A stretch of DNA of 32,290 nt. Source: Perkinsus chesapeaki (lineage: Eukaryota; Perkinsozoa; Perkinsida; Perkinsidae). The position numbers and the translations under genes were made by a program. The notes beneath the pieces were generated by a model. That model worked only from the letters and a program-made list of their open reading frames with translations. It was not told the origin of the DNA and did no database searches. Below are positions 2,646-31,024 of the stretch, piece after piece (positions within the stretch are counted from its first letter, which is position 1; each line of letters starts with the position of its first letter). The DNA is taken from positions 1 through 32,290 of the forward strand of contig JAAPAO010000406.1 in assembly GCA_013115145.1 (NCBI GenBank), read 5' to 3'.

Positions 2646-4894
2646 ATGACGCTATCTGATAGAAAGAAGTGTACTTGGGAGGAGATAGAAATAACAATAA
2701 GACAGTTCTCGGTAACCCTACCACGGTGGTTTCGTCGAAGGCCGTTGCAGACCATGCGGTACATCTTGGGTTCAATTGGACGGAGGGGCGGCAGGCAAGG
2801 TTTGCGGTCTGGAGGCCGTTTACAAGGCCATGTAGTGGGGTGGGGCAGCGGAGGGGGCTGAGGGTGGCGTCTGATAGGTACGATGCGGTGAGCTCTCTCG
2901 AGTTTGGGTTCTTCGAGCGATTCTCTGAAGTTCAAGTTAGGGACATTGTTAAAGTGTTGCAGGTGAGGTGGAGGCTCGGGGGAAAGAGTGTTTGGTGGAG
3001 GGATTCTTCTAACAACGGGAATGCGCTTCGAGGGGAGGTATAACGGAGAACCATTCAACTGCAAATGGATTTGATAGATAAGGCTTAAATTCACAAATAT
3101 TTTAATTCCCGTTTAAATTTCAGCTTCAAGTTAGCGCTTAATTTTATCAATTTTCATCAGTTATTATAAGAATTATCAGTTTTAGTGAACTAGTCTTTTA
3201 TTTATCAGCTATTAGCTTTATTAATTAATCAGTAGTATTAGTCAATGAACTTTGATTTTAGGCGTGCACTTGATGAGGTCTGCTTCTGATTAGATACGAC
3301 ATTACAGGGAGGGAGATGTGGTCTGCAATAAGGGGGAAGAAGGACATGAATTTTACCTTGTATTTCGTGGCGAGGTGACTAATTCAATCTCGACGTCCTT
3401 GAGGGAGTTCCGAGATTCTCAGGTTGATATTTACCCGGAGCCAAAGGAACCGCCGGTCGCCACTTTCTTGGCTGGCGACTCCTTTGGGGAGTTGGCCTTG
3501 ATGCACGATGCGCCCAGAGCGGCTACGGTGATCTGCCGGACCGATTGCACACTTGGACTGTTACACAGGCTGCCTTTTATGCGAGCAACATTTCAGCATA
3601 AGTAGGCGATTTCTTGCAGCGCCAGGAAATTAGGCGTCTTTTCAGGATGCTTGAGGAGAGCCGAATTGTTGATTTTCTTACGTCATGTGTTCCTTTCTGT
3701 GGAGTGCCGACGCGGAAGCTGTGGCGATGCATAGGTAGGGGCAGAGGGATAGTAGAGGGCGAAAGTCACAGTCATGGAATTGAACACAGCGGGGGGGTAG
3801 CGAGAAGTCAAAATTTCAATGGCAACACGATGCCATGTGTACTAGGTTATTACTCCAGGCTGATGCCATGTGTACTAGGTTATTACTCCAGGCTGATGCC
3901 ATGTGTACTAGGTTATTACTCCAGGCTGATGGCATGTGTACTAGGTTATTACTCCAGGCTGATGCCATGTGTACTAGGTTATTATTCGAGGCTGATGGCA
4001 TGCCATTCTATTGACTATTAGTATTACGTATGGCGCTGGTTGTGAATTCAGTATTTTATCGATATTGATGATCTCAAATAGATCTCTTCGTTGATGTTGC
4101 AATACTGGTGAAGTTGTTCATGGTTCAGATGCCTGGTTTTTGAAGAGGTCCACTCCAGGCAAGTGCTTGTTGCATTCTCGAAGTCCATGGGCTCCTATTG
4201 GCAGCCAATTATCAGGGGAGGGAGGCTATGATGGGGAGGTAAGGGCGCTATTAGATTAACACTTACAAAAACTTGTGTGGGATTTCGGATATAGTTTTCG
4301 AGAGATTCGTCACGTAGATTGCCTTGATAAAGTCTACGGAGACAGATAGCTGTGGGGGGGGAGTGACATACCACAGTCGCTATCAATTGCTCTATCTTCA
4401 TTCACTCTGTGGAGCTTTTTACCGCACAGTGGGAGGTTTCAGAAATGGAATGTGCTTTGCATTTGCAATATCTCCCTACTGTAATTTGAGGGAGTTAGGC
4501 TCTAGATGAGAGAGCGAGGAACTCTGTGTAGTTTGCTGATGTTCAGGTTGATATGACTTCGGAGTTCGATTGGTCGGAGCAGTCGTTTGAATTCGGTGGG
4601 ATAAAGTGACATGTGCCGGGATCGAACCTGTGCCTTTTCAGGTCCGGCGGACGCACCAGTGCCGCTAATCCACGCGCGGCCCGAGGCTACACCAATACCC
4701 TTCTTCGTAGTTATGAGGGGCAAGGTAGGAAACCCTAGGAGCTCGTTAATTCTGAGGCGCGCGGTAATTGTCAGGTGATGGTGCATGGGACCATTGCTAT
4801 CCACGGAAGAGTCGCTACTAAGTGGCAAAACGATGGGGATGAGAGTCGAGAGGAATTCAGCTTTGGCAGCTTTGATACCATAGATTCCGAGGCG
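2646..4894 (+). CDS. Cyclic-nucleotide-binding-domain protein, multi-exon, ends uncertain
   Basis: At least one clear cNMP-binding domain. An exon near 2878-2962 gives the N-terminal helix (FGFFERFSEVQVRDIVKVLQ). The next, from about 3308 to 3601, gives GDVVCNKGEEGHEFYLVFRG and the phosphate-binding cassette FGELALMHDAPRAATV. That cassette has the Glu and Arg that contact cyclic nucleotide in PKA/PKG-type domains, so ligand binding looks intact. A further exon from 3620 (QEIRRLFRMLEESRIVDFL) resembles the linker into a second domain. Exons 4547-4595, 4642-4724 and 4775-4894 join in consistent phase and give a domain-like strand set (FFVVMRGKVMVHGTIAIHG). No kinase or channel segment is visible. 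The 3601/3620 junction is one base out of frame for an 18-nt GT-AG gap, and a minisatellite interrupts the middle. The gene may therefore be a decayed copy, or it may have exons I could not place. The true 5' and 3' ends are unknown. Confidence 0.55.
3829..3993. repeat. 33-bp minisatellite, five copies
   Basis: Five tandem units of 33 bp, beginning GATGCCATGTGTACTAGGTT. Copies 1-3 are identical, copy 4 differs by one base and copy 5 by two. A partial sixth unit follows. Because 33 is a multiple of three, the array stays open in one frame on each strand (11-residue repeat MPCVLGYYSRL on the plus strand). It lies between recognisable exons of the cyclic-nucleotide-binding gene, so it is more likely intronic than coding. 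Confidence 0.97.
4596..4641 (-). other. tRNA-like intron, copy A (46 nt)
   Basis: A 46-nt GT-AG intron between exons whose phases match (split Gly codon). Its middle reads TGACATG, five bases, then GGATCGAAC. The complement of the core GCCGGGATCGAACCTG is a textbook tRNA T-arm/B-box (GGTTCGATCCC). The strand given is that of the tRNA-like sense; the host gene runs plus. It aligns ungapped with the intron at 15842-15896 (23 of 33). Confidence 0.65.
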
Positions 4895-5973
4895 GTGAGT
4901 TGGGGTCCGCTAGTTCCCCGTTGGTGTCGTAATCTCGCTGATGGGAGATTTCCGCCGCATGTCGTCACTAGGCTGTAACAGCCTGACTGTTAGGGAATGC
5001 GACAATACTTGTACGGATATTTGCATGGGTTTATTAGTCCTCATGCTTCTACTTACTACTCTTCGTTTTCTCTCCGACAAGCGTGTTACGCTCGTTCCAG
5101 TGATGCGCTTGGCGTCGGGGTGAAGGTGAAATAGCAGAAATTTCAAGAAGCCGCTACCGTACAAGTTTAATTATGATACTTCTTCAACGTCTTGAACTTT
5201 TAAATGTATATCACAGCGCATGTATTGTTAGAAACAATACAGCCTCAATCTACAATAATACGACTTGTAGCACTGACGTTTGGAAATTCACTCGATAAAA
5301 CTCGAGATTTAGTGAGGAATCGAATAAATACGAAATATTCTATTTTATTGCGTCGGGCTGTATAGTAATAGTAAATAGAATTACAAATCACAGTCAAGTG
5401 AAACGTACTAGGTTGTATGTTCATTGTAGGTTAAAACGAGTAAGGTTTATGAATGTTGAATAGTTAATCAGAAAAATGGAACAAAGAACAAAGTTGTGTG
5501 ACGAGCTCCGAATTGTGTCGCTTACCCTAACACAACAATTCTGTCCCGTATTTATATCGCTTGGCAATTTCCTGGAAGATCTGAGTAACACTGTGGCGAT
5601 GATCAGGTACGAGTGTTTGAAAACATTCCCTTATTTGAGCTGTCTCAAGGCATGTTCTATGGTCAGGGAGAGATGCTCTTAGGCCCCGAGGTCCGACAGG
5701 TAGGCCCTGAGGCAGGGTAGCTGTGAGGCCTGGTAAAGCATTATTCAAATACGTGCCGTATTGGTCTAAGAACACTGCATTCAACTACATATGGTATTGT
5801 TATCCCCTCGAGGTGTAGCATCGCCTACGCAGTGGCGAGTGGGTTTTCACTAATTCAAGCTCTGGGATTGTGCGCACTATAAAGGATACGCATTGATATC
5901 TGATCAGATATTGCCCAACGTCTCGGTATCGAACCTGTCTGTGGTAGCCCTGACCGAGGGTAGGACTTTGTCA
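4895..5973. other. Stretch without a supported gene
   Basis: Probably holds the 3' end of the cyclic-nucleotide-binding gene and the 5' region of the RRM gene. An ATG frame at 5476-5605 followed by GTACGAG could be an upstream RRM-gene exon, but I could not connect its phase. AT-rich sequence occupies about 5160-5470. A tRNA-like core lies at 5917-5947. Confidence 0.4.
5917..5947 (-). other. tRNA-like core, copy E (probable intron end)
   Basis: CGGTATCGAACCTGT matches copy A's CGGGATCGAACCTGT at 14 of 15 positions. It is followed by GTGGTAG, a possible acceptor, after which an open frame leads into the RRM gene. The intron's 5' end could not be placed. Confidence 0.4.
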
Positions 5974-8010
5974 ATGGACCAACCGCACTTTGCAGCCCTC
6001 TGTCATTCCGAGGCAGAGTTTTTGTAGTTGCCGGGGGCGGAGCGTTGAAATTGATCTCCGTTCAGTGACGGCATTATGGCCATTACGCGCTCCTTGTCCG
6101 CTTTGGAGAAGCAGCAGATGGTTCAAATTGTGTCACTTCTGGATCGGGTAGGGCTTCTGTGCATGGTCATGATTCCACTCGTTGAGTTAGCCGGACTTTG
6201 CCCGCAAGTCGGCCCATTATATGTTGAAGATAATGTCGATTGTGCAGAACACTGGACAGTTATGGGCGTCTGTGCCGGAGTTTGCAGAGGTACGTCGGGT
6301 GGCCCTTGGCAGCAGATACTCAATGATGGCTGTAGAACTAGCCTGCCTTGGTAGCTTTGTAGACTGGAAAATCTCCTACAGTACCCATTGCCAGTGCGAA
6401 CTCTTGTCCTCGATAGGGCCTCCCCTCTGAGGCTCTACTTAGTAGACTGCCCCGGTGGCTAAATGCACGCATCAAGCTAAGATATTTGTTTTTACATTTT
6501 CGGTTGTATCTCGGTCAGGTGGCCCAGAGATGTGCGCATGAGCGTCACCGGGCGGCGCTATCGGAAAAGGTTGCCGATAAGGTCGAGCATGCAAATGACG
6601 AGATACGAGGATACGTAGTGCAGAATTGGCTGCGTCATAGCAAGACGTAGAGGATGCTGCTGTTCGACATGATTGTATTGGCCGTTGTTCCACACAGGGA
6701 CAATTGTTGGGTTGAGTGGGGGGGGGAGCGAAGCGATGCAGGAATACACGATTTCAGCCTCCTGTTGATTGTGCGATGGATGTCTTAGAGCTGCTTGAAG
6801 TTGAGGAAGAGCCGGTTGTGGCGGGAACTGAGGCTGTTGGGCAGCAAGGGAAGGATGAAGGGGCTAAAAAGAGACAAACAAGGAAGAGGCGGCGGAGGAA
6901 CTCTGAGGGTGGGTAGGGAGAGCTGGGATGCGGAGAGCGGAAAGACAATCCTACTAGGGTTACTCTACCCAACGGGGCTGGTGGGGGGGACAGGAATTGT
7001 GTGGAAAGCGACTTGGGACGGCAAATTCTGGGTCAAATAATATGAACCATCTCTGAAATAAAATTGTGTAGTGGCTGTTAAGGTTCGCGTCATGAATTTG
7101 GGGAGTGCCGACGGCTCGGTTGGCTGGGTATAGGCTATTGTGGCTTTAGGGGGTGGCAACGAGGATAAGAGGATGAAGAATGAGGGAGGGTTAAGGAAAC
7201 GAAAGCCTGTTGACAGAGCAATAAAGTAAGCTGGTCCTAATACCTGTTCGCAGTAGAGATTCGGAGCGGCAAGTCAGTCTAGAAATTTCACCGATTTAGC
7301 ATTTGGTACCTCTCTGGCGTTCAGGGCTCGAAGTATGTTCTTGAATAACCTACCAGTGGAGGCGACATCCGAGTGGGTGAAGAGAACTGTGCTGAGTGTG
7401 TTGCCAGAAGGAAGCAATGGAATGGATGTCATCGATCGGGTGTTCATCGGACGAGATAAGAAATGTAGGTACGCTGGATGTCGGGAGTCGAGGCCATTAG
7501 GGCTGTCGGCATAACTTTCTTTTTGCTCGATCAGCGCTACTTAGCACGTTCTCGTTGTATGTTACAATGCCTCAGAGCAGAGTACAATTTGATGACATCT
7601 CGTTTCTTCTCGAATTTTCCCCATCTCATGTAAGCGATGACATCCGTGTGCATATATACGTAATATATCTCCGAATTTCCTTGACTTTTCGTTTGTGTTA
7701 CTTCCCAAGTTGAAAATGTCATACTTTCGCAGATCCAACTCGGTGCGCTGGGTGGGCCAATGTAACGTTCACATCGGAATCGATTGCCGAAGACGCGTTG
7801 GCGAGGCTGGATTACCATATGGTCGATTGTGAGGACCTATTGAAGGAAGCCGAGGAGAAGGAGCAAAGCGCATCTGCTGGTGGTGCTGGGCAGCCCCCGA
7901 CTAACAAACGTGAGATGGGACGGGGTAAGAGAAATGCTCGCGGAGGAACCGTGAAGGGCGCCGCCCTCCAAGGGAGATGGGCTCCGGTAGAAGTTCATAG
8001 TTCAAGTTGA
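5974..8010 (+). CDS. RRM-domain RNA-binding protein, seven exons (about 293 aa)
   Basis: Exons 5974-6023, 6066-6147, 6209-6289, 6519-6614, 6758-6912, 7325-7464 and 7733-8010 join with GT-AG introns (42-412 nt) and perfect phase to a TGA. The first third is helical (LEKQQMVQIVSLLDR, VAQRCAHERHRAALSEK). Next comes an acidic patch (LELLEVEEE), then a strongly basic run (KKRQTRKRRRR) that looks like a nuclear localisation signal. One RRM follows: RNP2-like MFLNNLPV, a linker helix, RNP1-like CAGWANVTF, then a helix ending DYHMVDCEDL. The tail is Gly/Arg-rich (MGRGKRNARGG). This predicts a nuclear RNA-binding protein, but the exact role is not recognisable. The start could lie further upstream, because the frame stays open back to a possible acceptor near 5947. 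No frameshift is seen. Confidence 0.75.
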
Positions 8011-8330
8011 TAATGGAGCCTAATTTGTAAGTATTGATTTCCAATATGTTAATGAGGAGTATACTATCGCTTAACGATCGTTGAAGTAGGATAGGTCTCC
8101 ACAAAGTAGTCGTCCTGTACGGTATTTCGTACGCTCTACGTGAGATGCGGTCGCAGTGTGACGTGCCCGAGTCGGGCATTACGAAATTATCAGTCGTAGC
8201 TCACATAAAGCTCAGTTTAGATTGTCAAATATCATCACATTCTCACGGAAAACCTTTGTAGCGGTGGAGGACTCTTCAGGGCGTGGTGGCCACGGGCCTA
8301 AGGGTGTCAGAGTAACGAAGAGATGCCTCT

Positions 8331-9218
8331 ATGCATCCTCGGGGCTACAACGCCACGAATCGGGCCAGAACGGAGGTAGAGGCAAATAGCCTCCAGCGAG
8401 CGTTTACTTATCGTGCTTTCACAGAACACACCAAGTCTACGGCGAGTCAATTTCGCCTCCCCGAAGAGCTGGTGCAGAAGCTGAAAGATCTTGTACGGGA
8501 GCATAGTTTGTCCGACTCCCCAGCGGGCAGGCTGGCTGATTCGTATCGACGGACGTTTGGCGAAAGGGTACCTGTGCAAGAGTATGGCTTCAAGAACTTC
8601 GTGGCGGTGAGTTGGGCTAGCTAAAATTTTGATGGCTCGCATAGTTTGCATTTTCCAAAAAGTTACCGGCCAGTAAGAGAACTGTGTGTAGGACAGCTGG
8701 AAGCTCCTCGATCTTTGCACCTGGTACGGTTTGTTCAAGCGCTGAGAAACTAATTGTTTTTATCTTATAAACTTCTCCTCGAAGTTGGCATTCTCACCTT
8801 CGAAATTTGCCTCCTAATTTGACGGATACCGCCGGTTAGAGTTCTGCGAAGCTGCTAATCTTGTCGGAGGAATAGCTCCCTGTAGAGAAACAGCCTGCTG
8901 AAACAGCTCTTTGAAATAGATGGTATAGCATATGCTTATTGGCTCGTTGAACAGGAACGTTGTCCCCGTCAGGCCCTGAGTTCCATCCCTGGGGTGAGCA
9001 TCTGGGAGGAAAGACCAAAACAAGTGTGGTTCTCATGGGAAACAGAAGAGGAGGACAATGTCAGTGTCGAGGTTGCCCCAGCTACGAATGACAAGACACA
9101 AACTGTTTCTTATCCGACCGACTTTAGTTCGTGCGGACGTTTCTTGTATTTTGCATCTCGTAGCGCATTCGCCAGAGGAGTGACCAATCATGCCCTCCCA
9201 CTCGAAAGGCGTAATTAG
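8331..9218 (+). CDS. LOTUS/OST-HTH domain protein, two exons (173 aa)
   Basis: Exon 1 (8331-8606) and exon 2 (8973-9218) join phase 0 across a GTGAGT...CAG intron of 366 nt. From about residue 40 the protein reads ELVQKLKDLVREH, then RLADSYRRTFGERVPVQEYG, then FKNFVAALSSIPGVSI. This is the winged-helix pattern of LOTUS (OST-HTH) domains, with the conserved YGF after the recognition-helix region. In animals and plants these domains occur in RNA-silencing and germ-granule proteins (TDRD5/7, MARF1, Oskar), where they bind RNA or Vasa-type helicases. Both flanks are short and unlike any known domain. It directly follows the RRM gene, an arrangement reminiscent of RRM-LOTUS proteins. However, an in-frame stop at 8008-8010 and incompatible phases argue for separate genes. 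Confidence 0.7.
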
Positions 9219-9475
9219 TGAGTACGTGAGTGGAAATCTTTTAGTGTGTCGCATATCAGTTACGAAATAGGGGAGATATCCACAGGCAATCAACCCGTGT
9301 TGAACCTAAGGCAAAATCTTTTGAAGGTTTTTAAACTTTTTCGGCATCACGGCCCACTTTTGAGATTGGTCTCCAGGCGTGTGTGTTACAGTCGCGTTTT
9401 CGTACAGGAATAACCCACACTATTAATTGCGCCAAGTGGGCAAATTCGACAGGCTTTTCATAGTTTTTCGTTACT

Positions 9476-10301
9476 ATGGACCCTAATCTCGTCTCCTCTA
9501 TTTGTGCTGCTGCAGCATCGTTGTTTGCTAAAGTTGGTTTCGACTCCACAGACAGATCCACCGCGTGAGTTCCGATGGGGGGATCGTTGTTCGTTTTCGT
9601 GTAGAATTTAATCTTTGCACTACATTTGTTCGACAATAAGCTCAACTGTGGACGTGGATACGATCTGATCCGAGAAAAGATGCACATCGGCGTTTCAATG
9701 GTTACTAGTCGTTAAAATGCGATGAGCATTGGTAGCGATGGTAGCATTTCCCGCTCAGTGATAATTAACCATGCGACTGGCGAAACTTTATACCTCACGC
9801 TTGCTTGGAGTATTCATGCGCTGAGAACTGACTCTCAAAGTCAATCCTCGGTTCTCAAGTATTTCAACAAAGTCAGGCTTTGTAGAGACATGTGGATTGC
9901 TTCGAGTATGTTGCCGTTTTCAGATCGGAATTCGGCAGGGACTTCCATCCTCTGGCAGGTTACGCTGTCCGGGCTGTTTTCATTGCCCTTTCTCTAGCGG
10001 CAAATGCAGCAATGATGTCCTATTATATTGAGGCATTGCAAAAACGTAGAATGCCAAGATTGAACCAGAGGTCCTCATTTCCGCGCCAGGTACAGCGTTA
10101 CAGGCTACTGTGATGAACTTCGGAGGGAACTTCTTGTTCTCGTCGATCTTCGGCGTGGTGTTCTTCGGCGAGAGGATGAGCTTTACCTGGCTGTTGGGGG
10201 CTGCGTCGATTGCTACTGGAGTGGTGAGTGTGACGTGGTGCTTGTTTGTAGCTGAGATTCGGTGTTGGAATAGTAGTCGGAATTTCTACAGAAGTGAGTG
10301 A
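9476..10301 (+). CDS. TMEM42: TMEM42-like DMT-fold membrane protein, three exons (140 aa)
   Basis: Exons 9476-9564, 9924-10045 and 10090-10301 join in consistent phase. The four hydrophobic segments expected of a half-size EamA/DMT protein are present: the N-terminal SSICAAAASLFAKVGF, then AVFIALSLAANAAMMSYY, then the conserved TALQATVMNFGGNFLFSS, and FTWLLGAASIATGVVSV. The signature F-G-E (VVFFGERMS) before the last helix is typical of TMEM42 and of DMT halves. Human TMEM42 is of similar length (about 160 aa). The transport substrate, if any, is unknown for the family. GTGAGT near 10222 could be an extra donor, in which case the C-terminus would differ. The second intron is one of the tRNA-like introns. 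Confidence 0.8.
10046..10089 (-). other. tRNA-like intron, copy N (44 nt)
   Basis: Whole 44-nt intron of the TMEM42-like gene, with phase confirmed by the conserved protein on both sides. Its core TGCCAAGATTGAACC, followed by CCTCATTTCCGCGC, aligns without gaps to the P5A intron at 29514-29562 over 35 nt with 23 identities. Nine of the 12 mismatches are transitions. The complement carries a B-box-like GGTTCAATC. The core is antisense to the host gene. Confidence 0.65.
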
Positions 10302-10589
10302 AAATCTAAAATGCAACAGAAACGATATAAAATCAGGTATTGAAGTATATTGCGAGAAAATTCTGTAGGTAACATGCTGTACATTAATATATAATGATTC
10401 AATTATCATGACTGTCTACTCTAATCATCTCCTATTGATCAAATTGATCAAATCAATGTGTGAGTTCTGATATTACTGATACGGAACTGTATTTGATATC
10501 ATAGGAGTATGTAATCCCAGTGCCTGATATGTGAGATCCAGAAGACGTCATTAGGGCACAGTTATTTCGCGGTCCCGCTCGCGACATGT

Positions 10590-11534: not shown

Positions 11535-14229
11535 ATGGCATGGGAACTGACACCGGAAGAGATAGAAGACCTTTGGAATGTAAGGAACGCCATCGTGTGT
11601 CACGTATCGCCTTTCACGGATAATTTACATTCTGTTGCCGTTTAGCATTGTCTGCTTTAACACGCTCTGCTAGTTCTGGTGAGATGTCGTGTATTACTTC
11701 TTGGGAGGCGCGTATATTTCAGAGATGGACCAGTTATGCCGCCACCCTCGCCAAGTGTTTCACTTGCCTATTATGCTCAAGTCCACCATGAGGAGATACG
11801 AGCCCTATTTCTAGTCTCATAGAAATCTCTTCAGAAAATTTCTTCAGAAAAGTGTTCTCTACATGAACCACTGTTCTCGTTGCTGCTGTTGCGGTTGTCT
11901 TGATGTTCCGCAACTGATCGATCGTAATAGCTTTAATGACCCTCTTAGCGGATTCAGCCTTATCGCGATTATCTTTTCTTTTGATCAGTTCTACCTTCAT
12001 CGCGAAGGGAACAAGTCCGGGTCGGACAGTCTGAGGATCCAGGGCGGATTTGCGGCGATGGTCCGGTCGCTTTTCGAGCAGGAAGGACTGCTGTATCCAA
12101 GTGCCGGATTGGTGGCATGGCTGGCATACGATATCTTCGGCGCTGAGGACGAGGAGATCGATAAGGCGACGTTCAGGAGAAGATTTAACGAGTAATGCTA
12201 GCGGCTGCAAGTTAGCGAGAAATTGACAGAGTGGAGACTGCGAGGAGCGAGAGGCTCCGATGGTGACTCATGTATGGGTCTCGACTATGAAAATTTCATG
12301 CCCTTATCATTGATGAGGGGGGGTTCATTCAACCTCGGATGGGAGTGTTATTTCCTGAGCCTATTCTCGAAACGCGTCACACTTCTTTGGATACTCTCTC
12401 GGACCACGAACGCATTTATGCAATCAGGTTCTGGACCAGCCGGGAGTTCATCCTTCAACGCTATGCTCAGCTACAGGGCACGTGGTCTCCACCGACGGTC
12501 GCGGTTATGGCGCCGGTTAGGGGGGTAGTCGAGCATTCAAGGGAGCCTGAAATGAACGAAAGCTCCCCTTTGTTGGTAAAGGAGGGAGCACTTGAAGAAG
12601 CGCCGAGGCAGGTTAACGAGAAATTTACGTTGAAAGAGAATCTTGTGCGTGGAAAAGCGAAAGTGGAGGCGGTGGGAATTGAACCCGCGAAGGCAGCTGA
12701 CACCGCAGTTGTTGCGACACCCGACTCGCTGTCCCCGAAGTCTGTTAGGGCTACTGAGCGCACGCGCAAGTCAGGGAAAGGAGATGAGGAGAAATGGAGA
12801 GATTTGAAGGTCGCCAGGCTGCTGAAGAGGCTTGAAACAGTCGAGACGAGGTAAGACTTAATACATTTGGCACCGTTAGGATAGATGGCACCGTTAGAGA
12901 GAACCCCGTGTCAGATAGATTGACATTTGCACCCAATGGGGGGATCGGTGAGCGTTTGTGACTCTTCGGCTCGCTGGATTGAGGTGGTAATAGAGCCTGT
13001 AAATAATAGACACAGGAACGGCAGTAAAAAGGAAGCTGGAACTGAGCCGTTGGTGAATTAGACTCAACTCCTAGCTTAAGTTAATGACGCAGCCTGGATA
13101 TAGCGAATGTCGATGGCCGTGTACACAGTAATCATGTGCCAGCTTTCCTTTTTAGGAGGGCTGAGGCCGAGAAGTTAGCGAGCTCCCGGGCAGATGAGAT
13201 GAAGGAGATGACACGGAAAATACGAGAATTGGAGGTTTGCCGAACTTCAAGATTGAGGTGGGAGTTTACAAAGTCAGGATGCTCTGGGTGTCGCCAGAAG
13301 ACTTAGTCTCCGGGAGAGGAAGGAGAAGAGCGGACATGATAGTGTAACATACAGGACAATGTTCGCTGAATGAGCCTCTCATGACGGAAGTTTACAATGG
13401 GGAGGATGGCATCGTCAGACGACTGGTTCGTCAAATAATTTTCCCGACATGCTCGGTTTCCGTGCTACGACTCCACTTTCCTGTTCTGAGCTAAGGATGG
13501 GCGAGCGTTGGGCATCTCCCCCAATTAGATTTCACAGATATCGACTTCACTGAGAGCTGCTTAACTCGACCACTGTCTTTGCGGGACACATAGACGTGCA
13601 GTACGCTGTAACATCGTTATCGCTGGGGAGTATGCTTTATCACCTTGCGTGCACACGGTTTGCATGCAGTTCTTTCATTCTCCCTGTCCTGGAAATTCCA
13701 TATTATCATCCCTTCTCAGAGTGCGTCTCGTTTTAGACAGCACCACTTGATAAACAGCTATCCGCTCTTCATCGATCACGTGCTTGTCTTGCCACTGCAG
13801 TGACGGCAGCATCTAAGGCAATGGCCACGACAGAGGAAGTTTGGGATAGGCCCTCGGAGTTGACCAGTCTACTCTTCCAGGTACCTCGATACCAGGGACA
13901 TTAAATTCTCTTACGCGCACAGTGTGGATTGCAAAAGCCTTCTGGGTTCGATATGCACATAGTCAATTCTCGTCGCTTTCTAATTGGCGGAAGTACAATG
14001 GCTTCTTACCAGCATCAGTAGCTATAAGTAGTTGTCCTCAATCCTTTACTTCCTCGATACATTAGCCGTATCATCAATGCTTTAAGGTACTGGACAACGC
14101 CAAGTCGCTGGCCCAAGCGGAGACCGAGGACCATGTCTCGACCTGGAGAGACCTCTTCGTTGATCTTTGCAATATCCAAGTGCAGATGGTCAGAGCCGAC
14201 AAGCGCGCCCAGCGTCTGGCCACTCGCAC
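11535..14229 (+). CDS. EF-hand plus coiled-coil protein, multi-exon
   Basis: Exons 11535-11579, 11989-12191, 12216-12344, 12428-12850 and 13156-13234 chain in phase. Exons 13801-13880 and 14087-14229 probably continue the gene after an exon I could not place between 13235 and 13800. The N-terminus forms an EF-hand-like helix-loop-helix: TPEEIEDLWNFYLHREGNKS, then SDSLRIQGGFAAMV. A degenerate second unit is AYDIFGAEDEEIDKATF, and a third Asp-rich loop is GSDGDSCMGLDYENF. Canonical calcium ligands are incomplete in all three, so Ca2+ binding is uncertain. After a charged low-complexity linker, the chain becomes coiled-coil-like (KVARLLKRLETVETRRAEAE, later VLDNAKSLAQAE and VQMVRADKRAQRLA). The intron between exons 2 and 3 would be only 24 nt. 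The downstream antiporter-tail-like exons may belong to the same gene, but the phase at 14229/14300 does not match. Confidence 0.55.
12672..12696 (-). other. tRNA-like string inside an exon, copy C
   Basis: GTGGGAATTGAACCCGCGAA resembles the complement of a tRNA T-arm (GGTTCAATTCC) but lies within an open coding frame in the low-complexity linker. It starts with GTG and ends with CAG, yet at 25 nt its removal would shift the frame. It may be an exonised remnant or chance. Confidence 0.3.
13931..13967 (+). other. tRNA-like core, copy F, inside a 206-nt intron
   Basis: On the complementary strand this reads TGACTATGTGC, AT, then ATCGAACCC and GGCTTTTGC. It matches copy A's TGACATGTGCCGGG, ATCGAACC and GCCTTTT apart from short indels. 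It lies in the intron 13881-14086, in the opposite orientation to copies A, B and N. Confidence 0.4.
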
Positions 14230-14299: not shown

Positions 14300-16126
14300 A
14301 TGTGCCTTTGGCTGCACCAGTTTTCAACATGACTAAAAGTATAGTTTCAGTGCTATCTGAGTTCGCCGGGGACTCGAAGTCCCTCTGCATCTTTGGTGGC
14401 GGTGGTGGTTCCGATCAGGAGACGGCCAGATTATTAGCAGTTTCCCTCGTCAGTAAGCAGTTTCAGCAATCGGTTGTATCCTACGCGTTGGTCTCCACTT
14501 GAGCTTCTCAGTATACAGCTGCTAGTCTTTGTTTGATTGGTTTTCATGATCGACTTTCTTCAACTTGGTCCGAATTCACAACCCCTGTTTAGGTTGTAAA
14601 AAGCACTCCCTGAAGACCATCACCGTCATCACAGCATTTGCTCCGCTTTACGACCGGGAGGGCCCTCACCAAGAAAATGAGATTTTTACAGCTCGATCGC
14701 GCGAGCAGACAAAATTGAAGTAGGCGGTCGTTCGGTTGGTATGAGGAGCAACGTGCTCTGTGTGGTCAGGTACACTGGTAAACCCTTCAAGAGCTGGCAG
14801 AAGTCTGCCTCTGGCGAGTGGGAGTATGCCCAGCGCGACGCATCTAGGAGTTATTCTGATAATGAGTGCGTAGCTTCGTTATCAGAGGACAGCTCTCATG
14901 ACGGTCTTTTGTACACTACTGCCCAACCTGTTGAAGTTGAGGGAGTGACGATTCAAAGGTAAACTCTTGAAGAAATATCTGTGTTTTTGCATCCTGCTTT
15001 CTTGAGAAAAATACGTCTAATGAAGACCCTATCCAAATGTGATCATTTCGAGACAGACTGGAACATTTTATGCCGGCCGTGAGATTTTATGCGGATCACG
15101 CACTGGAAACCGATCATTCGTTTCAGCGTACAAGACGCGACCGCCTTTTTCAACTTTTCCTCTTCCGCTGAATTTTTCATCGTCCGACTTTTCTCAGTTA
15201 CGGTCTCGTTGTTGTACCGCCATCGGAAAAGCCACTTTTCGAGGCTTCCAGAGATCTCCTTCAACGCTTGCTCTGCCCGACCAATTCCGACATCGTCGAG
15301 CCTATTCTGTTAGTAGACACCGGCGGAGATGGGATGAAGTTTTACACTAAACGATCGTTACCAGCGGTAAGTTCTCGTCGCTGCGCGGTTATAAAACAAG
15401 GTTTGTTCCACCAGTGGCCTGTCAAACTGCTTATCTACACTTGGTATACTTGTTAAAATATTTCTGAATCGATCGTCATAAAGTAGCCATTTTCATGTCC
15501 TTATTTTTCAGGGTGCGGCACATATGGGAGACGTAGACGTTACTGCTATTTACGGCGGCGTGAGTGACAGTCGGGACACAGATTCCCTTCGCTTGTGCCT
15601 CCAAATTTCTCGGAAAAAGAATGGAAAGATGGCTTTCCTAGTAGTTGGTCCCGGTGCCGACGGCGAGAGCTCCACACAAGTAAGCTACGTTACGTTTTAA
15701 CTGTGGCGCAACCTGTTGTCTCAGGGCTTGACAAATACCCATGATATGATACGTCGAAATGGCTCTTTGGTTCTGGAAGGATCGGTTGCGGAACTCATTG
15801 GTATAATGGACGACCACACATCGCTTCCAGAGAGACATTTGGTGAGTGCATAAATGACATGACCGAGGATCGAACTGGGGATCTTTCGATTGTTAGCTCA
15901 AACTCTGGCTGCAACCGCGACAGTTCAGTACTATTGCTCACATTACTGAAGCAGTGAAGCTTGGTGAGCATAAAAACACCTCTATGGACGACCAAACGGT
16001 TACCATACGGAGGCAGGGAGTTGTGGTATGCATCGTGGATGAGGGTGAATAATAATAGAACGTTCGCTTTCAGGTCGGCCCTCGCCCTGCGTCATTCCTC
16101 AGCTCGTTTTGGCTGATCAGTGGTGA
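14300..16126 (+). CDS. Protein resembling the UspA-like C-terminal region of CPA2/CHX antiporters
   Basis: Exons 14300-14452, 14721-14958, 15198-15366, 15512-15679, 15725-15841, 15897-15963 and 16074-16126 join with perfect phase to a TGA. Two halves look alike. SLCIFGGGGGSDQETARLLA followed by NVLCVVRYTGK parallels VTAIYGGVSDSRDTDSLRLC followed by KMAFLVVGPG. The pattern hydrophobic strand, GG, acidic, then Arg/Glu plus Leu-rich helix, recalls the GGPDDREAL motif in the cytosolic tail of plant CHX and other CPA2 Na+(K+)/H+ antiporters, where a UspA-like fold is thought to bind nucleotide. I see no membrane segments in the assembled part. The 5' part is unresolved: this may be the tail of a gene whose transmembrane exons I failed to place, part of the upstream EF-hand gene, or a free-standing regulator. 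Family assignment is tentative; the exon chain itself is solid. Confidence 0.5.
15842..15896 (-). other. tRNA-like intron, copy B (55 nt)
   Basis: A phase-0 GTGAGT...TTAG intron. It carries TGACATG, five bases, then GGATCGAAC, the same spacing as copy A. The complement CCCCAGTTCGATCCT plus the following ATCGAAAGATC resembles a tRNA T-arm, variable loop and anticodon-stem 3' side. The core is antisense to the host gene. The 5' and 3' acceptor strands do not pair, so this is not an intact tRNA. Confidence 0.65.
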
Positions 16127-22559: not shown

Positions 22560-23933
22560 TCAATCGCCTGCTACTACCGATGAAGAAAACACATGTGTGA
22601 AGGTAAGGACGCCCAGAACAACAACGAAGATCAAGTAGGCCGAGAATAGCACCACGGCCTCCGTCCGAGTGAGATATGCCTTCGGGTATCCTTTGATAAC
22701 AGCAACACCATCAGTGAGAAGGAGCAGGCCAAACACGGCCACCATAATGACAATAGAAGTATCGAAAAGGAAGGATCCTCGCTCATCCACAGGGATCGAC
22801 CCGCCAGCCAGTGAGGCAACAGTCCAGGGCAGGCCAAGGCCGACACAGATGTTAATGATCTGTGATCCCATACAGGCTGAAGCTGCCATGGAGCCGTAGC
22901 CCCGGCTGGCAACTGTGATGGCATTGACCGTATCGGGTATCTCGGCCCCCATCGCCACTAGTATTAGGCCGAAGTAGCCCATGCTACCTGGCTGGCCCAG
23001 TAGAGTTACCCATCGATCGACAACAGTGCCGAGCATGAACGATGCTACTGTAATCCAGAGAAAGGATGCCAGGAAGGTTAACGGATAAAGATCCTCTCGA
23101 GGTTGATAGATGCGGCAGTCCGGACAGGTCTCATCGATGATCCACTTCAACGGGGCCATCAGAGCCACCACTAGACTTTTCGGGGAGGGCAATTTCTTTT
23201 TGCGTTCCCGGTTAGCATCTCGCTGCACCAAAGGCTGCGACAGTTGGGAGTCGTACCGCTCTCGGAAGACCGAGGTGGATTCCTTGGCGAAGACCTGTCT
23301 AGGATTGGCACCGTGGCTCAGCTTAAATTGCTTATACCATGCGTTGACCTTACGACCGTAGCACAGGACCAACACATACACAACATAAGTGAGCAGCTCC
23401 AGACAGGCGATGGCCAAGTCGACACCCATTCTCAGAGCCCACATTAGCAGGCCAAGAGCTATCATATAGAAACAGATGTCCCGAGCCAGAGGTCGGCGCT
23501 TCAAGGCCAAAGGGCGACCATCCACCATTACTAAGGTACACATTGCTGGTATAGCCAGGAAGGCTATAAGCCCACTACCGAGGATGGCACCGACACCGAG
23601 CTCGGCTTCGGTGACATCCTCAGGGTGATCTGTTCGAGATTGCTTTAATAAGGATTTTACTGTGGCTACTGAATTGACTGTTATTTCGGGCACTGCTCCG
23701 CCAAGAGCCATAAAAGTTGCCCCACCGACGTCCTCAGGGACATCCCAGTGGTCACAGAGGGTCTCCATGGAGTTACAGAGATGGTCCGCGGCAAACGATA
23801 GCATCCCAAAACAGTAAAATAGGATCACGAGCTCGAGGACTATACCGTACCAGGCATGGTCCAGGGCATCGAGACACATGCTCTCCTCAAAGTGGGATAA
23901 TGTACATGTAGCTGGCCCTACACCATCTGACAT
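22560..23933 (-). CDS. NCKX/SLC24-like cation/Ca2+ exchanger (intronless, 457 aa)
   Basis: Single-exon frame with about ten hydrophobic segments. The two inverted alpha-repeats of the CaCA superfamily are clear. Alpha-1 is GGATFMALGGAVPEITVNSV at residues 70-89 (family: GATFMAAGSSAPE), with the ion-binding Glu in VPE. Alpha-2 is VAMGAEIPDTVNAITVASRG near 326-345, with the Asp in IPD, followed by MGSQIINICVGLGLPW. Between them lies a cytosolic loop with basic and Ser-rich patches (about residues 195-275). The family exchanges Na+ (with or without K+) for Ca2+ at plasma or organelle membranes. A striking change is GSQIIN where NCKX proteins have GSNxFD. The Asp there determines K+ dependence in NCKX2, so this protein may be K+-independent. 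The absence of a long N-terminal extracellular segment makes it shorter than animal NCKX. Confidence 0.88.
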   Translation of the reverse strand: MSDGVGPATCTLSHFEESMCLDALDHAWYGIVLELVILFYCFGMLSFAADHLCNSMETLCDHWDVPEDVGGATFMALGGAVPEITVNSVATVKSLLKQSRTDHPEDVTEAELGVGAILGSGLIAFLAIPAMCTLVMVDGRPLALKRRPLARDICFYMIALGLLMWALRMGVDLAIACLELLTYVVYVLVLCYGRKVNAWYKQFKLSHGANPRQVFAKESTSVFRERYDSQLSQPLVQRDANRERKKKLPSPKSLVVALMAPLKWIIDETCPDCRIYQPREDLYPLTFLASFLWITVASFMLGTVVDRWVTLLGQPGSMGYFGLILVAMGAEIPDTVNAITVASRGYGSMAASACMGSQIINICVGLGLPWTVASLAGGSIPVDERGSFLFDTSIVIMVAVFGLLLLTDGVAVIKGYPKAYLTRTEAVVLFSAYLIFVVVLGVLTFTHVFSSSVVAGD

Positions 23934-24098
23934 ATTACAAAGGGAGTATAGGGGAACGGAGAGAGTATCCTTGGAGTATCTTGCTGACTTGGGCTCACTT
24001 CCATTTCCTCAACGCAAAAGATACGCTTTCAAACCGATCACAACTTGATTGTCGTTCTTTTCTACTTGTTCATTAATAGTAATTGTTAATTTATCGTA
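23934..24098. promoter_or_regulatory. Shared divergent promoter region
   Basis: Only 165 bp separate the start codons of the minus-strand exchanger gene and the plus-strand RRM gene. Both 5' leaders and promoters must share it, unless leaders are supplied in trans. The right part is AT-rich (TTAATAGTAATTGTTAATTT). No named motif is recognised. Confidence 0.5.
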
Positions 24099-25174: not shown

Positions 25175-25695
25175 TATCTATAGTAGACGCTTGATCGTGA
25201 TGGATTAGTGCATAAGTCAAGTCCTTCACGGTGCTCTTATATACGCGGCTTAATGCATGCTATTAGGGAATGCCCATGCAGTTATTGTATAACTACTATC
25301 CTGGATTACTCAGCGAACTTCGCTGTCGTCGTCGTCGGTTTATACTATATATCAAAATGGTTCGTATTTCGGCCTATTGGCAGATATCCATGGTCTTCAT
25401 GTATCACATGTGTCTCTATGGGCACGTTTCATTACTACTTTATCGGTTTAGTTATATGGTAGTAAAATCAACGGTGGGGCTGCTGGGAATCATTCCCAAA
25501 ATTAAGGTGGCATGGGAGGAATATCACCTTAAGGCACCCCCTTGTTGTGGGGAGATTTCTAGCAGTAACACAGTGTGCAATAAGGGTTTCTGAAAAGGCA
25601 ATTTTACTCAACGCAATAAAGATACCAGAAAGAGTACACACCGAGGGAAACGTGGTGACGATAATGGTGGTGAAGCAATTTGGTATTTATAAGGA
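25175..25695. other. Convergent intergenic region
   Basis: Lies between the RRM gene stop and the P5A gene stop. A frame at 25270-25593 is open but has no homology I recognise and reads like chance. I treat the region as 3' flanks. Confidence 0.5.
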
Positions 25696-28600
25696 TTAAA
25701 ACAACCATCTGCTCTCATAGCCTTGGGCAACCTTTTCGAGATGCATACACCATCGACCAACGAAGACAGGAAGGATAAAATGGCACACCACCAGCAACAT
25801 TGACCATCTATGATATCCTTCGCTTTCGGGGAACCGCACTATAGAGAATAGCTCGTTGAAGTCGGGAGAAGCCTCGCTGGCCACAAAGAGTACAGTGGTG
25901 ACAGCGGCCACTAAACCCATCCATAATGGGCGATTTGCCTTCATGGACTTCATTGATGGTGGACCTTCATAGTTGGCTAAGAATGCAGAGAAGTGGCAAG
26001 CAGCAGTCTGGATGAACATCTGGGAGTTCAACAGTGTCGGCTCGAATGCAGAGTCGAGATCCACCGGCCCCTCGGGGGCGTAGGAGGCGGCTAACCTCCA
26101 TCCGGCAAGCATGAGGACGACGTGAATGGTCAATTGCAGCGCCAGAGAAAGTTGCACGCTCCAATGAAAGATACTCGTGACCGGCTTGAAAAGGGAAAGC
26201 TTGTTGGCGGGCTTTGACCGTCCCATAGCTGTGAAGATAAGGGAAACTGCAATGGCCTCCGTGGCAGATTGAAAGTCGCCGAACTTGGCACCGTGAAGGG
26301 TGAGGACGGAGAGACTGAAGGCACCGATGAGGGAGTTAAGGGCGAGAATCTTGTACATCTGCATCACCACCGAATGGACGGCCCTCCCACAACGCAAAAT
26401 GAAGGGAACACATTTGATGCATTCACCGCGATAAGTGAAGGGTGCGGCCACACTGGCGTCCATGCCCATCCGCGCAACCGGTGCTGCACCATGAAGCTCA
26501 GCTTCTCGGAGTTGAAGTCTACGCTTGCGGGAAAGGGGACCGGAGTCGGATGATAGGAGAGATATCCCCACGTGGGCCGCCTTGAGCGCACCGACATCAT
26601 TAGTGCCATCACCGCACATTAGAGTGATCTTTCCATCGGCCACCATACGCCTGATGACGTCCTCCTTATTAACCGGTGACATTCGGCTGAAGATGGTTAT
26701 CTTGGTCAAGTCAACATCGGGGTTCTCCAAAAGCAACGGGACCGATTTCCCCTGCACACAGAGGGTGTACCGATTGCTGTGGTCGAAGCCCCACTGGAGA
26801 GGCACGGTGTAATCGGCCGAATCGAACAAAGGGCTCCACTCTGTCGCGTCATCAGAGAGAATGAGCACTCCATCAGAATCGCCTGATTTGAGGCCAACAG
26901 CCTGGGCTACTTCACAGGACGTCGAGGGATGGTCGCCGGTGATCATGCAAAGTGGCCTGGAAACGTCATCAACAGTGTTTGAAGCTGCGCGGTGGCGTCC
27001 TTACACTTTGCTGCCCATCTCCTTCAAGTGCCTCACAGCCTTCATAGTGCCGGTCTTAACCTCGTTACGGAAGGCAATGAAAGCGATGAAGTGCAGGTTT
27101 CTCTCGACTTCGTCTCTGTCACTCACATCGCTGTGCGTGCTAACCCTCTTGTACGCTGCAGCGATCACTCGCAGACCTTCACCAGCTAGGTCCTGGAAAG
27201 TCCTGAAGTGGGCACGAATCGCAATAAGAAGTATGTAGCAAAGCTCACTCCTCGTAATCCTGCGGAACGTCTTCTAAGAGAGATTCGATCATCTCCGGGC
27301 TCCCTTTGCTCAGGATTAACAGCTCGCTCGCAGGGCCGTTTTCGTGCCTGACAAGGAGCTATATACAGGGAGCAGACCAATGAATCCTCCTACTTCATAA
27401 CGACGCTCATCCGCTGTAGTTCGCTATTGAAGGGGAACCGCGCCAATTGCTTGTACTTCTGGTTGCCGAACACTTGGAACGTCGGAGCATCGCCGCCAGG
27501 AAGGTATATAACTGACACCAAAACACTCAACAAGCGTTAGTAGGCAGCTCGGTGAAGACTATTATAGAGTAATAGGAATCCCATCAAGCAGCGGAAAGTT
27601 CGCTATATCAGCTTACCAGCCGCGTTGGTAGCCGTCCGGGCCGCAGTGAACATCGCTTGCTCAAGAGGATCTCCCACTAAGACTGTTGCTGCTGGATCTA
27701 CCGCTGTGAGAGAGTGACAGCAGGACAGTACCAAGTCAAGTAACCTGAACACACTGCTTTCACCGTAGCTGTGACGGTGAGCCTTACTTCCCAGAATCAA
27801 CCGTGCTCGCTCCTGGAAGCATCTTGGTGGCCTGAAGTGTCATCTCCCCGTTTGTAATGGTACCAGTTTTATCAAAGCAACATACATCAACCTGAAAGAG
27901 TGCAATGAGTAGGATTAGTAGAGACGATTAATTTTGGTTAAGCTCAAAATGCTCATATCCGCAGCTGCGAGGTCTGATTTAGATACACAGGAAGATATAC
28001 CCCCCTCTGCGACCCTCTGGAGCGATGCATCGAGTTCTGCTCACCTGGCCAGCAAAGGGGAGTCTGAAAGGCTCTGTGCAATAGACACTGTTCCGCATGA
28101 GATGACCGAGGCACATGGTAACCGCTATACTCATCGTAACCGGGAACTCTGGAGGGACAACGTTCGTTATTATATGGGTTAAAGATAGGAACAACTTCCA
28201 CCTGAAGAGAGCAACGTTGGTCGGAGCAATAACAACATGTAAAGAGTCCGCTTCATCCATTACTATCCCTTCTATTGTACCGCTCGCGTCAAGCGAGATA
28301 AAGCGTTGAAAAGGAGAAGGACTCGAGAGATTAATCCATGAACCTTTCATAGAGACTAGAATCGATGAAGCACTAGGAGGCAACCACAGCATCAGTGATA
28401 CTTCCCATTCCACTCGAGGGGATTTCCCACTGTCGAATAGCTGCAAATGACTATTGCATACTTACTTTGAAGGAGTGAGGCTTGGATTAACGACCAGACG
28501 GTAATAGGCAACGTAGGCTGATGCTACCAAAGCCACTGCTACCAACCCTAACAGGAACGTCGTGGCCTCTCGACTGTTGGTACCTATAATGTTAGATACA

Positions 28601-31024
28601 CACTATTAGCAGTGGCTAATAACAGTAATACCAGTCACTCTCTCTGAGGAGTACAGGATCGTTCTGACTAGCTTCCCTTGGACAGTGTCAAAGCCCGTCC
28701 GCAAAACATAGCAAACTGCCCCTTGCTTATAGGGCGCCTGAAATTCTCATTATCCTTGCCGTGTTCGAACTTCGAATCTTTACCTTCTTCAATATGCCAG
28801 ACTCGGGCGCCGTTGGTGGTTTGGTCAACACCAGTCTCGTGCCGGAGAAGAGAATGTTACCCTTGTGAGATCCACGGCAATCCAATTCAGTGTCAGGTGA
28901 CGATATAATAGATTCCTTCAAGCCCGGAGTGGACTCTCCTGAAAATACTCTAGCGGAGCGAAGCACATAAGTTTCATTTACCAGTCAACATAGATTCGTT
29001 CACTACAGCTGATGAGCCAGCCAGCAGCAGCATGTCAGCTGGAACCACCTAAGCGTGCATCTCACGCAAGAAAAAGATATTTCCATACCGGGTTGTTCAT
29101 AGTAACGCAAATGATATCTCCAGGGAGTAACCTATTGGATGGTATAAAGGTCCATCGGCCTCCTCGCACCACAGCGACTTCGTAGATTGGCGGTTTGATG
29201 GAGCGGATCTCGGACATGTCTCTGATGCGACGCTTTATCTGAGTTGCGGATGAGGGTACTACGGAAAGAGATGTTTATTACTGTCATTATCTCCAGCATA
29301 ACCAGAAGGATTATTGTCATCAAGGAGTAATACCAGTAACTAAAGCAGACGTTGAGCTATTTTGGATCTTGCACGGTGAAGCTCTAGATTCCCAGTGAGA
29401 ATTTCCCAAACTCCCTCGTACTCGTCAAAAAGCCATAACAGCCCGCAAATCATCTGAAAAACGAAGAAGGGTGCAGTGACGTGCTGCAGGAGGAGCTCTT
29501 GGAACTCTGGGATCTAAAAATGCACCCTGCCGGGATAGAACTCGCGACCTCTATTTCCGCACAGGCATATTAAGGTCATTGTCGAAGTAAGTCTCCTCTG
29601 CCTTAGACACCTCCTCCTCTGATAAACCTCTACTGTTATTATAAAAATCAAGTGTGTGGTGGATTGGGTACCTAACACGCCAATGATAAGATACTATGGA
29701 AGTTAGAGTATAAGGGTTAAGTGATGACTAGGGTACTCTACCAGATGTTGGATATTAAGGGAGCTAGAGTATAAGGGTTAAGTCATGACTAGGGTACTCT
29801 ACCAGATGTTGGATATTAAGGGAGTTAGAGTATAAGGGTTAATCGATGACTAGGGTACTCTACCAGATGCTGGATAGTAAGGGAGTTAATAGAGTATAAG
29901 GGTTAATCGATGACTAGGGTACTCCCTTTGCGTACATATATTTCTACATTATATCATTCCCCCATGTATCCATACCGTATACTACTTTGCTCGATGAAAT
30001 ATACCATCCTTAGGGTCCAAAAGTAGCTTCTTCCTCTCATAATCTATCCACACCTGTCCACCACTTTTTGTCTGTATTGGGCATAATAATGACTTATCAC
30101 ATGTCACAACTCTGAGAGCAAAAGGAATCATAATCACATAGGGAAATCTAGCGACCATTTAAGACTCATTCAGCGAATGTAAGCCTGCAAATTTTAGATC
30201 GCAAATCTTGGTCGATATGTACGTCAAAGGGTCCAATTCATATCTTCGGTGAGAAAACTTAGAGCTCGAGTAAGAGAAGTCAAAGGAGAAAGAGCGAAGA
30301 GGTGACGATGTGAAGGTGTTCGGTAAAAGGGGAGAAATGATATATTACTTAACATGGGTAACCTCCTTACTATATGTTGGTAAGGCTGTATACCCTATCA
30401 AGCATTGTGCTGTAACAGACCAGTGCCCCATAAGGTACACTAATACATGCGATAGACCACTGAGAACCTGAACATTGTAGACTATGTCCATTCTTTTCGA
30501 GAGTTCCCTTTCTCAAAAATGAGAAACCGCCACTCACTTGGCGGTACCATCAAGCCCATGGTGTTCGTACACGAACCAATTTTCTTAGGAATACAGATCG
30601 AACAGCTAAAATGCGTGAAACCGCCTCTGAGTCTCGTTAAACATTTTTCGACTGTCCAATCGTATTGAAAAGGGTCGTCAGATTTTCATAGGGCGACGTT
30701 TATGATTCTTTCTTTCGCATATTTCCCAGCTGAATTTTAGTAATATCGTCAGTACATTAACATCACAGTTTGAACCCCTAGGAAAATATACCGACGAATC
30801 TCTCCCTGATGATGATGATGCCCTGGAAATACTACCAAAGGAATGAAATGTTCCAATTCTCCATCATCCCTAATATCCACATAAGTGGCGAGCCATGCAT
30901 GCAATATGAACCATAGAGGGCCGTCAAGCCTATAAAGGAGTGGCCTTTCCTTGTAGAAGACGAAGCGTCTTTTATCAGACGACTGAGGCGTCGATGAATC
31001 ACCAACGCTATTGGGCTCGGCCAT
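25696..31024 (-). CDS. ATP13A1: P5A-type P-type ATPase (ATP13A1/Spf1 family), at least 17 exons
   Basis: From 30071 down, 16 exons join in perfect phase (30071-29986, 29632-29563, 29513-29422, 29339-29282, 29238-29089, 29048-28982, 28938-28784, 28737-28632, 28583-28466, 28201-28045, 27891-27788, 27744-27617, 27511-27394, 27347-27249, 27202-27005, 26956-25696), giving 988 residues. Motifs in order: [26 protein letters not shown] (actuator), the P5A helix motif [19 protein letters not shown], phosphorylation site [22 protein letters not shown], and [16 protein letters not shown], followed by six C-terminal helices. Spf1/ATP13A1 is an ER transmembrane-helix dislocase that removes mis-inserted proteins. 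All catalytic motifs are intact. A first exon starting at ATG 31024 ([10 protein letters not shown]...[20 protein letters not shown]) fits the family's N-terminus. The exons linking it to 30071 were not resolved. One intron holds a minisatellite and two carry tRNA-like cores. Confidence 0.92.
28738..28783 (-). other. tRNA-like intron, copy H (46 nt)
   Basis: Phase-0 P5A intron. Plus-strand TGCCGTGTTCGAACTT matches copy A's TGCCGGGATCGAACCT at 13 of 16. In the gene sense, AGTTCGAACACGGCAAGG matches the intron at 29514-29562 at 14 of 18. Here the B-box-like string is in sense with the host transcript, opposite to copies A, B and N. Confidence 0.6.
29514..29562 (-). other. tRNA-like intron, copy D (49 nt)
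   Basis: Whole phase-0 P5A intron, bounded by conserved protein (LNMP / IPEF). Plus-strand TGCCGGGATAGAAC is identical to copy A at 13 of 14. The next 21 nt, ending ATTTCCGCAC, match the TMEM42 intron. T-arm-like sense is the same as the host gene. Confidence 0.7.
29701..29926. repeat. 61-bp minisatellite, about 3.7 copies, in a P5A intron
   Basis: Units begin at 29701, 29762, 29823 and 29884, with period 61 bp; the last carries a 3-bp insertion and is truncated. Each unit holds AGAGTATAAGGGTTAA and GACTAGGGTACTCT, whose ends AGAGTA/TACTCT are inverted, so each unit can form a hairpin. The array lies inside the 353-nt intron 29633-29985 of the P5A gene. Confidence 0.95.
30072..30750. other. 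Unresolved part of the P5A gene
   Basis: This stretch should contain the missing N-terminal membrane exon(s) between the first exon and the exon at 29986-30071. I could not identify coding segments with confidence. Much of it looks intronic. Confidence 0.45.

Follow-up and report, generated by a model that had tools for sequence, protein, structure and literature searches.

Short introns of unrelated genes sometimes resemble one another, and the question raised by contig 342 of Perkinsus chesapeaki, analysed here over its whole stretch of 32,290 nucleotides (the window), is whether such introns descend from one repeated, tRNA-like sequence. The first-pass annotation of the window had described five short GT-AG introns in four genes as a family, had read the complement of their common core as the B-box and T-loop of a tRNA followed by a variable loop and an anticodon stem, and had proposed an element derived from a tRNA half or a SINE that inserts as an intron. 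The origin of new introns is an old question. The genome comprises 35.4 Mb in 884 contigs.

Introns of the window

The five introns were all located with GT-AG ends, three on the forward strand and two (28738 and 29514) on the reverse strand (Table 1). The core is exact in two of them, shows two mismatches in another two, and at 15842 is recognised by the weight matrix described below. Four introns match this matrix strongly and the one at 28738 matches weakly, which leaves the proposed five-member family with four strong members; the introns at 4596 and 29514 are among the copies from which the matrix was built, and their scores are partly a product of its construction. The ungapped pairwise matches of 23/33, 23/35 and 14/18 were recomputed, with a different scoring rule, as 19/24, 22/33 and 14/18. 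The claim that phase and flanking protein confirm these introns stands in part: a domain runs across the junctions at 10046, 28738 and 29514, and for those at 4596 and 15842 Pfam gave nothing and the support is the reading frame.

Table 1. Copies and candidate copies of the element in the window, with the number of 400 shuffles that reach the matrix score.
Position	Strand	Feature	Core	Matrix score	Shuffles	Junction and remarks
4596..4641	+	GT-AG intron candidate	4614-4627, exact, on coding strand (antisense of tRNA-like sequence)	45.7	0	Reading frame; no Pfam domain
10046..10089	+	GT-AG intron, EamA-like transporter gene	10052-10065, 2 mismatches, on coding strand	22.5	0	EamA match spans junction, E 2e-4, below Pfam's cut-off
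12649..12696	+	GT-AG stretch of 48 nt inside ORF	T-loop-like sequence	14.5	1	Frame open with or without the 48 nt
15842..15896	+	GT-AG intron	On coding strand	25.5	0	Reading frame; no Pfam match; end ...TTTCGATTGTTAG, antisense of CTAACAATCGAAA
22337..22378	+	Further copy, outside the five of the first-pass annotation		23.0		
26957..27004	-	Intron of P-type ATPase gene model		8.3	0	
27348..27393	-	Intron of P-type ATPase gene model		4.8	1	
28738..28783	-	GT-AG intron, same P-type ATPase gene as 29514	28757, 2 mismatches	8.6	1	E1-E2_ATPase match 69-204 covers junction at residue 172
29514..29562	-	GT-AG intron, P-type ATPase gene	29528-29541 on +, exact; tRNA sense	40.0	0	Cation_ATPase_N spans junction, E 2e-4; T-run TTTTTAG makes 3' splice site

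The intron at 4596 lies inside a tRNA-like stretch (4606-4678, reverse strand) with an A-box-like part, which makes the right end of the intron uncertain; this stretch is called by ARAGORN only at a lowered threshold, at which 198 calls were obtained against 154 on the reversed sequence. Another tRNA-like sequence with an A-box-like part, at about 5907-6000, was seen by eye around a weak matrix match (12.2). The stretch at 12649 could be an intron whose length preserves the frame. The whole window contains 16 matches to the core at up to three mismatches, and 100 shuffles gave a mean of 7.4, with one shuffle reaching 16; the excess within the window is by itself mild, and it is the genome-wide count that decides.

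Copies in the genome

When up to one mismatch is allowed, the 14-base core TGCCGGGATNGAAC occurs at 315 places of the genome and its reversed pattern at 16, and a broader pattern in tRNA sense, GTTCGANYCC-N9-CATTTT, occurs at 1,022 places against eight for its control; with two mismatches this broader pattern gives 2,025 places against 118, and all three counts take in some true tRNA genes. The first count includes some genes for tRNA-Thr(CGT), the T-arm of which matches the core with a T at the free place (locus L064). Of the 100 exact places listed for the broader pattern, no fewer than two are tRNA-Leu genes (L101 and L102).

A weight matrix of 42 columns was built from 88 copies in the fetched loci, minus L064 and L042, the latter being tRNA-like by eye and not called by ARAGORN. 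At a score of at least 15 the matrix finds 142 distinct places: 88 have the core with at most one mismatch and 54 have other cores, a few of these being true tRNA genes (e.g., L043). The reversed sequence gave two raw matches of at least 14 and none of at least 16, and at least one raw match was counted twice through overlapping loci. The fetched loci are the surroundings of copies, and the density of matrix matches in them is no fair sample of the genome. In one set of loci the flanks, compared by eye, look unrelated. Among 70 copies with the exact core, the linkage between variable columns exceeds that of all 200 shuffles in three of four sets of element columns, and in the fourth set and the trailer control it is not above shuffles; this linkage suggests subfamilies, and the strong differences at variable positions may point to several sources.

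Two longer repeat families also contain the B-box-CATTTT core, with conserved 3' flanks: one of about 165 bp (L103, L104 and L111) and one of at least 300 bp in L107 and L108, to which L136 was assigned by eye. Both are possible relatives or sources of the short element.

Likeness to the 3' end of a tRNA

In tRNA orientation the copies are conserved at C48, G52-C62 (GGTTCGANYCC), C72 and A73, after which comes a T-run, and the distance from C48 to TTTT is 30 nt. Columns 49-51 and 67-71 are variable, as are 63-66 among the copies with other cores. C48, the B-box and A73 are largely common to tRNAs in general. The B-box, found with the T-run spacing in the numbers given above, is a feature expected of a tRNA-derived SINE, and the T-loop reading of the core is borne out. 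The T-run stands directly after A73, where a mature tRNA has CCA, which points to a gene or a primary transcript as the source.

The likeness is one of sequence and spacing, not of structure. No anticodon-stem signal above chance was found in the copies, and this part of the original description is not supported. A-box-like sequence at tRNA distance lies upstream of only 13 of the 138 copies, a number that takes in true tRNAs; among 820 control windows the share is about 3%. The T-stem shows all five pairs in only two of the 70 exact-core copies; in the 65 copies with other cores its pairing is at the level of shuffled partners (five pairs in six copies), and its covariation is not above chance. 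From the pairing it follows that the source was no intact tRNA or that the copies are old. An upstream partner for the acceptor strand, with seven pairs, was found in eight of 159 copies against 6.6 by chance; these full matches are the true tRNA genes L064, L043 and L102 and a few others, among them the tRNA-like L116. The likeness to a tRNA is supported by the B-box, C48, C72, A73 and the T-run, and not by an intact T-stem or, in most copies, an A-box.

The search of the window for cloverleaves gave no call with either ARAGORN or Rfam. The places found in the genome contain true tRNA genes (L064 and L102), and Rfam applied to 20 loci reported, besides the tRNA-Leu loci L101 and L102, only L116 above its cut-off. 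This last (contig 92, 17889-17942, forward strand) is a tRNA-like stretch of 54 nt with an acceptor stem of 7 bp, a perfect T-arm and a single short arm in place of the D- and anticodon arms; it scores 31.7 bits as tRNA and 22.5 bits, under the cut-off, as mascRNA-menRNA, and contains the CTAACAACCGAAAGGTC of one element subfamily. Its acceptor pairing could be due to chance.

Source of the copies

The closest gene by eye, among tRNA genes examined that are a small part of the set of the genome, is tRNA-Thr(CGT): it agrees with the element consensus at 20 of 23 positions (44-66), carries the core with one base changed, and differs in the acceptor strand. The dominant form of the element, GTTCGATCCCGGCA, is absent from this same small part of the tRNA set. 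Nine copies show a CTAACAA-type sequence at the place of the anticodon loop, with unrelated sequence before it, five of the nine having been fetched for that very pattern. A tRNA-Val(AAC), suggested by a known tRNA as the source of this subfamily, was rejected, no place being an intact gene by eye; patterns of this type occur at seven places against none in the control for one and at 10 against four for another. A primer-binding site of retroviral type is likewise an unlikely origin; the T-run sits at the place of the CCA complement.

No clear target-site duplication is present at the copies. Repeated 7-mers flank 16 of 138 copies against 8.7 in shuffled pairs, a small excess, and repeats of at least 8 bases flank three of 138 against 2.7 expected; the longest matching run between flanks averages 4.3 against 4.0 (sd 0.14) in tRNA-sense introns and 3.8 against 4.0 in the others. 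The genome contains 56 reverse transcriptase matches at E ≤0.001, and contig 843 shows, at 4724-6595, endonuclease and reverse transcriptase matches in an uninterrupted, LINE-like reading frame of 1,150 aa.

These data bear on whether there is a mobile family at all. Many fragments of tRNA genes or of their 3' halves might instead have been pasted into exons independently, by break repair, and then recruited as introns. Captures of this kind would agree with conserved columns that are largely those general to tRNAs while the acceptor columns vary, with the lack of a clear target-site duplication, with the CTAACAA-type copies, and with the tRNA-Thr(CGT) core. Fresh fragments, however, should have an intact T-stem, and the five pairs are present in very few copies; the linkage between variable columns and the absence of the dominant form from the tRNA genes examined also speak against captures, which are considered unlikely. 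The two ends of the element, one fixed at the T-run and the other variable, are in line with copying of a short Pol III transcript by a reverse transcriptase. The lack of a clear target-site duplication, the shuffled level of T-stem pairing and the strong differences at variable positions were counted against a mobile family.

The high-scoring tRNA matches found several to a contig on contigs 328, 358, 440 and others are tRNA genes where examined (Arg, Ile, Thr, Cys, Gln, Lys and Gly), several of them nearly identical. This agrees with the large numbers of tRNA genes described for P. marinus (PMC3706591).

Copies within introns

GT-AG candidates of 36-110 nt were listed on both strands for 88 copies. 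Under a strict rule (clear strand preference and at most 66 nt), which leaves out 28 of 86 copies, the coding strand carries the core in 31 copies and the tRNA sense in 27; these 58 copies show one consensus common to both orientations. Intron context was also scored without splice matrices derived from the element, and six of the 142 places were dropped because of their nearness to a locus end. A score of at least 85 was reached by 38 of the 87 seeds and by 16 of the other 49 copies, compared with 52 of the 600 places drawn at random.

Pfam was run on 32 proteins: 31 are spliced across an element, at 33 junctions (L126 and L132 have two each), and in the thirty-second the E1-E2 ATPase domain covers the junction at 28738. 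In 14 of the 31 a domain runs across the element junction. Eight of these have the core on the coding strand: cyclophilin (L072), protein kinase (L074), DUF676 (L058), RRM (L009), poly(A) polymerase (L008), glycosyl hydrolase 47 (L016), ion channel (L127) and EamA (window, 10046), the matches of L074 and EamA being below Pfam's own cut-off. Six have the tRNA sense: kinesin P-loop (L080), THF dehydrogenase (L069), KH (L065, in which the domain extends five residues past the junction), protein kinase (L041), histidine-kinase ATPase (L112) and Cation_ATPase_N (window, 29514). In L045 a domain begins at the element junction, and 16 of the 32 proteins gave no match. The spliced joins were picked by eye, and this success rate is no estimate for the family. 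The 14 domain-supported introns belong to different genes. L126 and L132, on which Pfam gave no match, each have by reading frame apparently one intron per orientation in one gene. Many copies thus appear, from frame, splice sites and domain continuity, to sit in GT-AG introns of unrelated genes in both orientations, and the observation of repeated introns resembling a tRNA 3' end holds genome-wide.

The element is not confined to introns. An unselected sample, 20 regions taken in list order from the 100 exact places with those already fetched skipped, contains 22 copies: 10 score at least 80 by frame and splice sites, one of them (L136) in a longer repeat, and 12 are not strong introns, which was counted against the mobile-element explanation.

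The 14 domain-supported introns measure 44-71 nt, and the element takes up 30-46 nt within them, so that the core region does fill most of the intron as described; the outer parts of the introns are not conserved. Removal of the 30-nt element leaves 14-41 nt, less than 39 nt in 13 of the 14. Perkinsus introns are reported, in the available text, at 39 to 1,622 bp, the 39 bp being the shortest of P. marinus (PMC3101222), and the copies are therefore more than insertions into introns that already existed.

This result also weighs on the possibility that the copies are ordinary decayed tRNA-derived SINEs or tRNA pseudogenes, scattered through the genome and by chance present in some older introns. 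Full-length degenerate tRNA-like stretches do occur, and the 12 sampled copies that are not strong introns would be explained. Against this stand the remainders too short for an older intron, the enrichment in intron-like context and the low frequency of A-box-like sequence, and such scattering is judged improbable, somewhat more so than independent captures.

Tested introns of three genes

The P-type ATPase gene with the introns at 29514 and 28738, which we take to resemble the P5A class, was given a home-made model with 22 introns, and ten sound-looking ones were tested by matrix. One is a clear copy, those at 28738, 27348 and 26957 score above all or all but one of the 400 shuffles and are possibly decayed copies, and the remaining six gave no matrix signal above shuffles. 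In a thioredoxin-like and an RRM-like gene, so named from their sequence, seven introns were tested and show no trace of the element; 13 of the 17 tested introns of these three genes are thus no recognisable copy. Old, decayed copies thus probably exist. No empty site was seen among the copies, and the paralogues lacking an intron are all distant ones: a stretch on contig 452 is open across the region and, at only 27% identity, uninformative on intron gain.

A conserved functional intron motif, such as a TFIIIC-binding B-box or a splicing signal, would agree with a B-box kept better than the T-stem (in part by construction, the copies having been chosen by their B-box) and is very improbable in view of one consensus in both orientations relative to the gene and of the 13 introns with no trace.

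Proposed origin of the introns

The reading preferred here, with a probability of roughly 0.7, is that the repeated core represents a small mobile element, non-autonomous and descended from a tRNA gene's 3' end, which acts as an introner. Its observed basis is the sequence, the copy number, the presence of both orientations, the intron context and the domain continuity. The element would be about 30-46 bp long and consist of the rest of a variable loop with C48, the B-box/T-loop (GGTTCGANYCC), nine free bases, C72 and A73, with the T-run after A73 standing where a Pol III terminator would be. On insertion into an exon, an event deduced from the copies, it would make up the larger part of a new spliceosomal intron about 40-70 nt long. 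A copy in tRNA sense would be spliced from a GT at or close to the variable loop to a 3' splice site formed by the T-run, as polypyrimidine tract, and an AG; an antisense copy would draw its 5' splice site, GTAAA(A)TG, from the A-run and would end at an AG located at or close to the element's 5' end. The element would spread when a short Pol III transcript, variable at its 5' end, is reverse-transcribed, presumably by a LINE-type enzyme encoded in the genome.

The splice sites seen in the copies are as follows. The tRNA-sense introns have their AG after the T-run (e.g., CATTTTTAG) and their GT near the variable loop. The antisense introns start with GTAAA(A)TG or GTGAAAAATG, and one antisense subfamily ends in ...CTTTCGATTGTTAG, the antisense of CTAACAATCGAAAG. 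The exon after the intron starts with GT in 14 of 31 antisense and six of 27 tRNA-sense introns, and a GT at the start of the downstream exon could be a preferred target.

A fuller version of this introner reading has a little better than an even chance: the family would bring no splice sites of its own, the Pol III terminator would double as polypyrimidine tract in one orientation and as part of the 5' splice site in the other, and its invasion of genes would have lasted long enough for a sizeable share of the introns of 44-60 nt to be decayed copies. If the introner reading is true, Pol III transcripts are a source of spliceosomal introns, ready-made splice sites have a simple reason, and an intron can be created by an element hardly longer than the smallest intron. 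The graded decay among copies in one 35-Mb genome would make the process datable upon comparison with a second Perkinsus genome.

Comparison with known elements

SINEs derived from tRNAs are short, non-autonomous repeats with a B-box, and the Perkinsus element has these features in common with them. It differs in that most copies have no A-box, that the intron copies show no visible tail region, and that it is very short, amounting to most of an intron.

Introners themselves are already known. In diverse eukaryotes most families show a DNA-transposon signature, either a target-site duplication or terminal inverted repeats, according to the available text of the survey of Gozashti et al. (2022; PMC9860276), and a tRNA 3' end working in either orientation would add a Pol III-derived source. 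As in that survey, many similar introns lie in unrelated genes; its families carry splice sites or recruit them from the insertion site, and insertion in opposite orientation is considered there. Unlike them, the Perkinsus element shows no clear target-site duplication and has the 3' end of a tRNA as its core; the words tRNA, SINE and Perkinsus are absent from the main text of the survey. The introners of Amoebophrya, an alveolate relative, are also repeated introns; in the text available they have inverted and direct repeats and form mostly non-canonical introns (PMC7789003), whereas the Perkinsus introns are canonical GT-AG and show no clear direct repeats. Dada transposons of Perkinsus marinus (PMC3706591) share the genus and the involvement of tRNA genes; they are described there as DNA transposons, 4.7-11 kb long, whose targets are small RNA genes and whose insertion duplicates 6-7 bp of the site, whereas the element described here is itself the tRNA-like sequence. 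Among the papers listed on introners, intron gain, SINEs and Perkinsus genomes, a set with most subscription papers and all bioRxiv preprints outside it, titles and abstract openings name no tRNA-derived or Perkinsus introner.

Other features of the window

The window also contains two tandem repeats, one of 5.3 copies of a 33-bp unit (3829-4002) and one of 3.8 copies of a 61-bp unit (29690-29924). An ORF of 457 codons on the reverse strand (22560-23933), apparently with no introns, encodes a protein of the Na/Ca exchanger family, whose alignment with a 455-aa protein of P. marinus covers 99% and which shows 85% identity to P. marinus and 84% to P. olseni.
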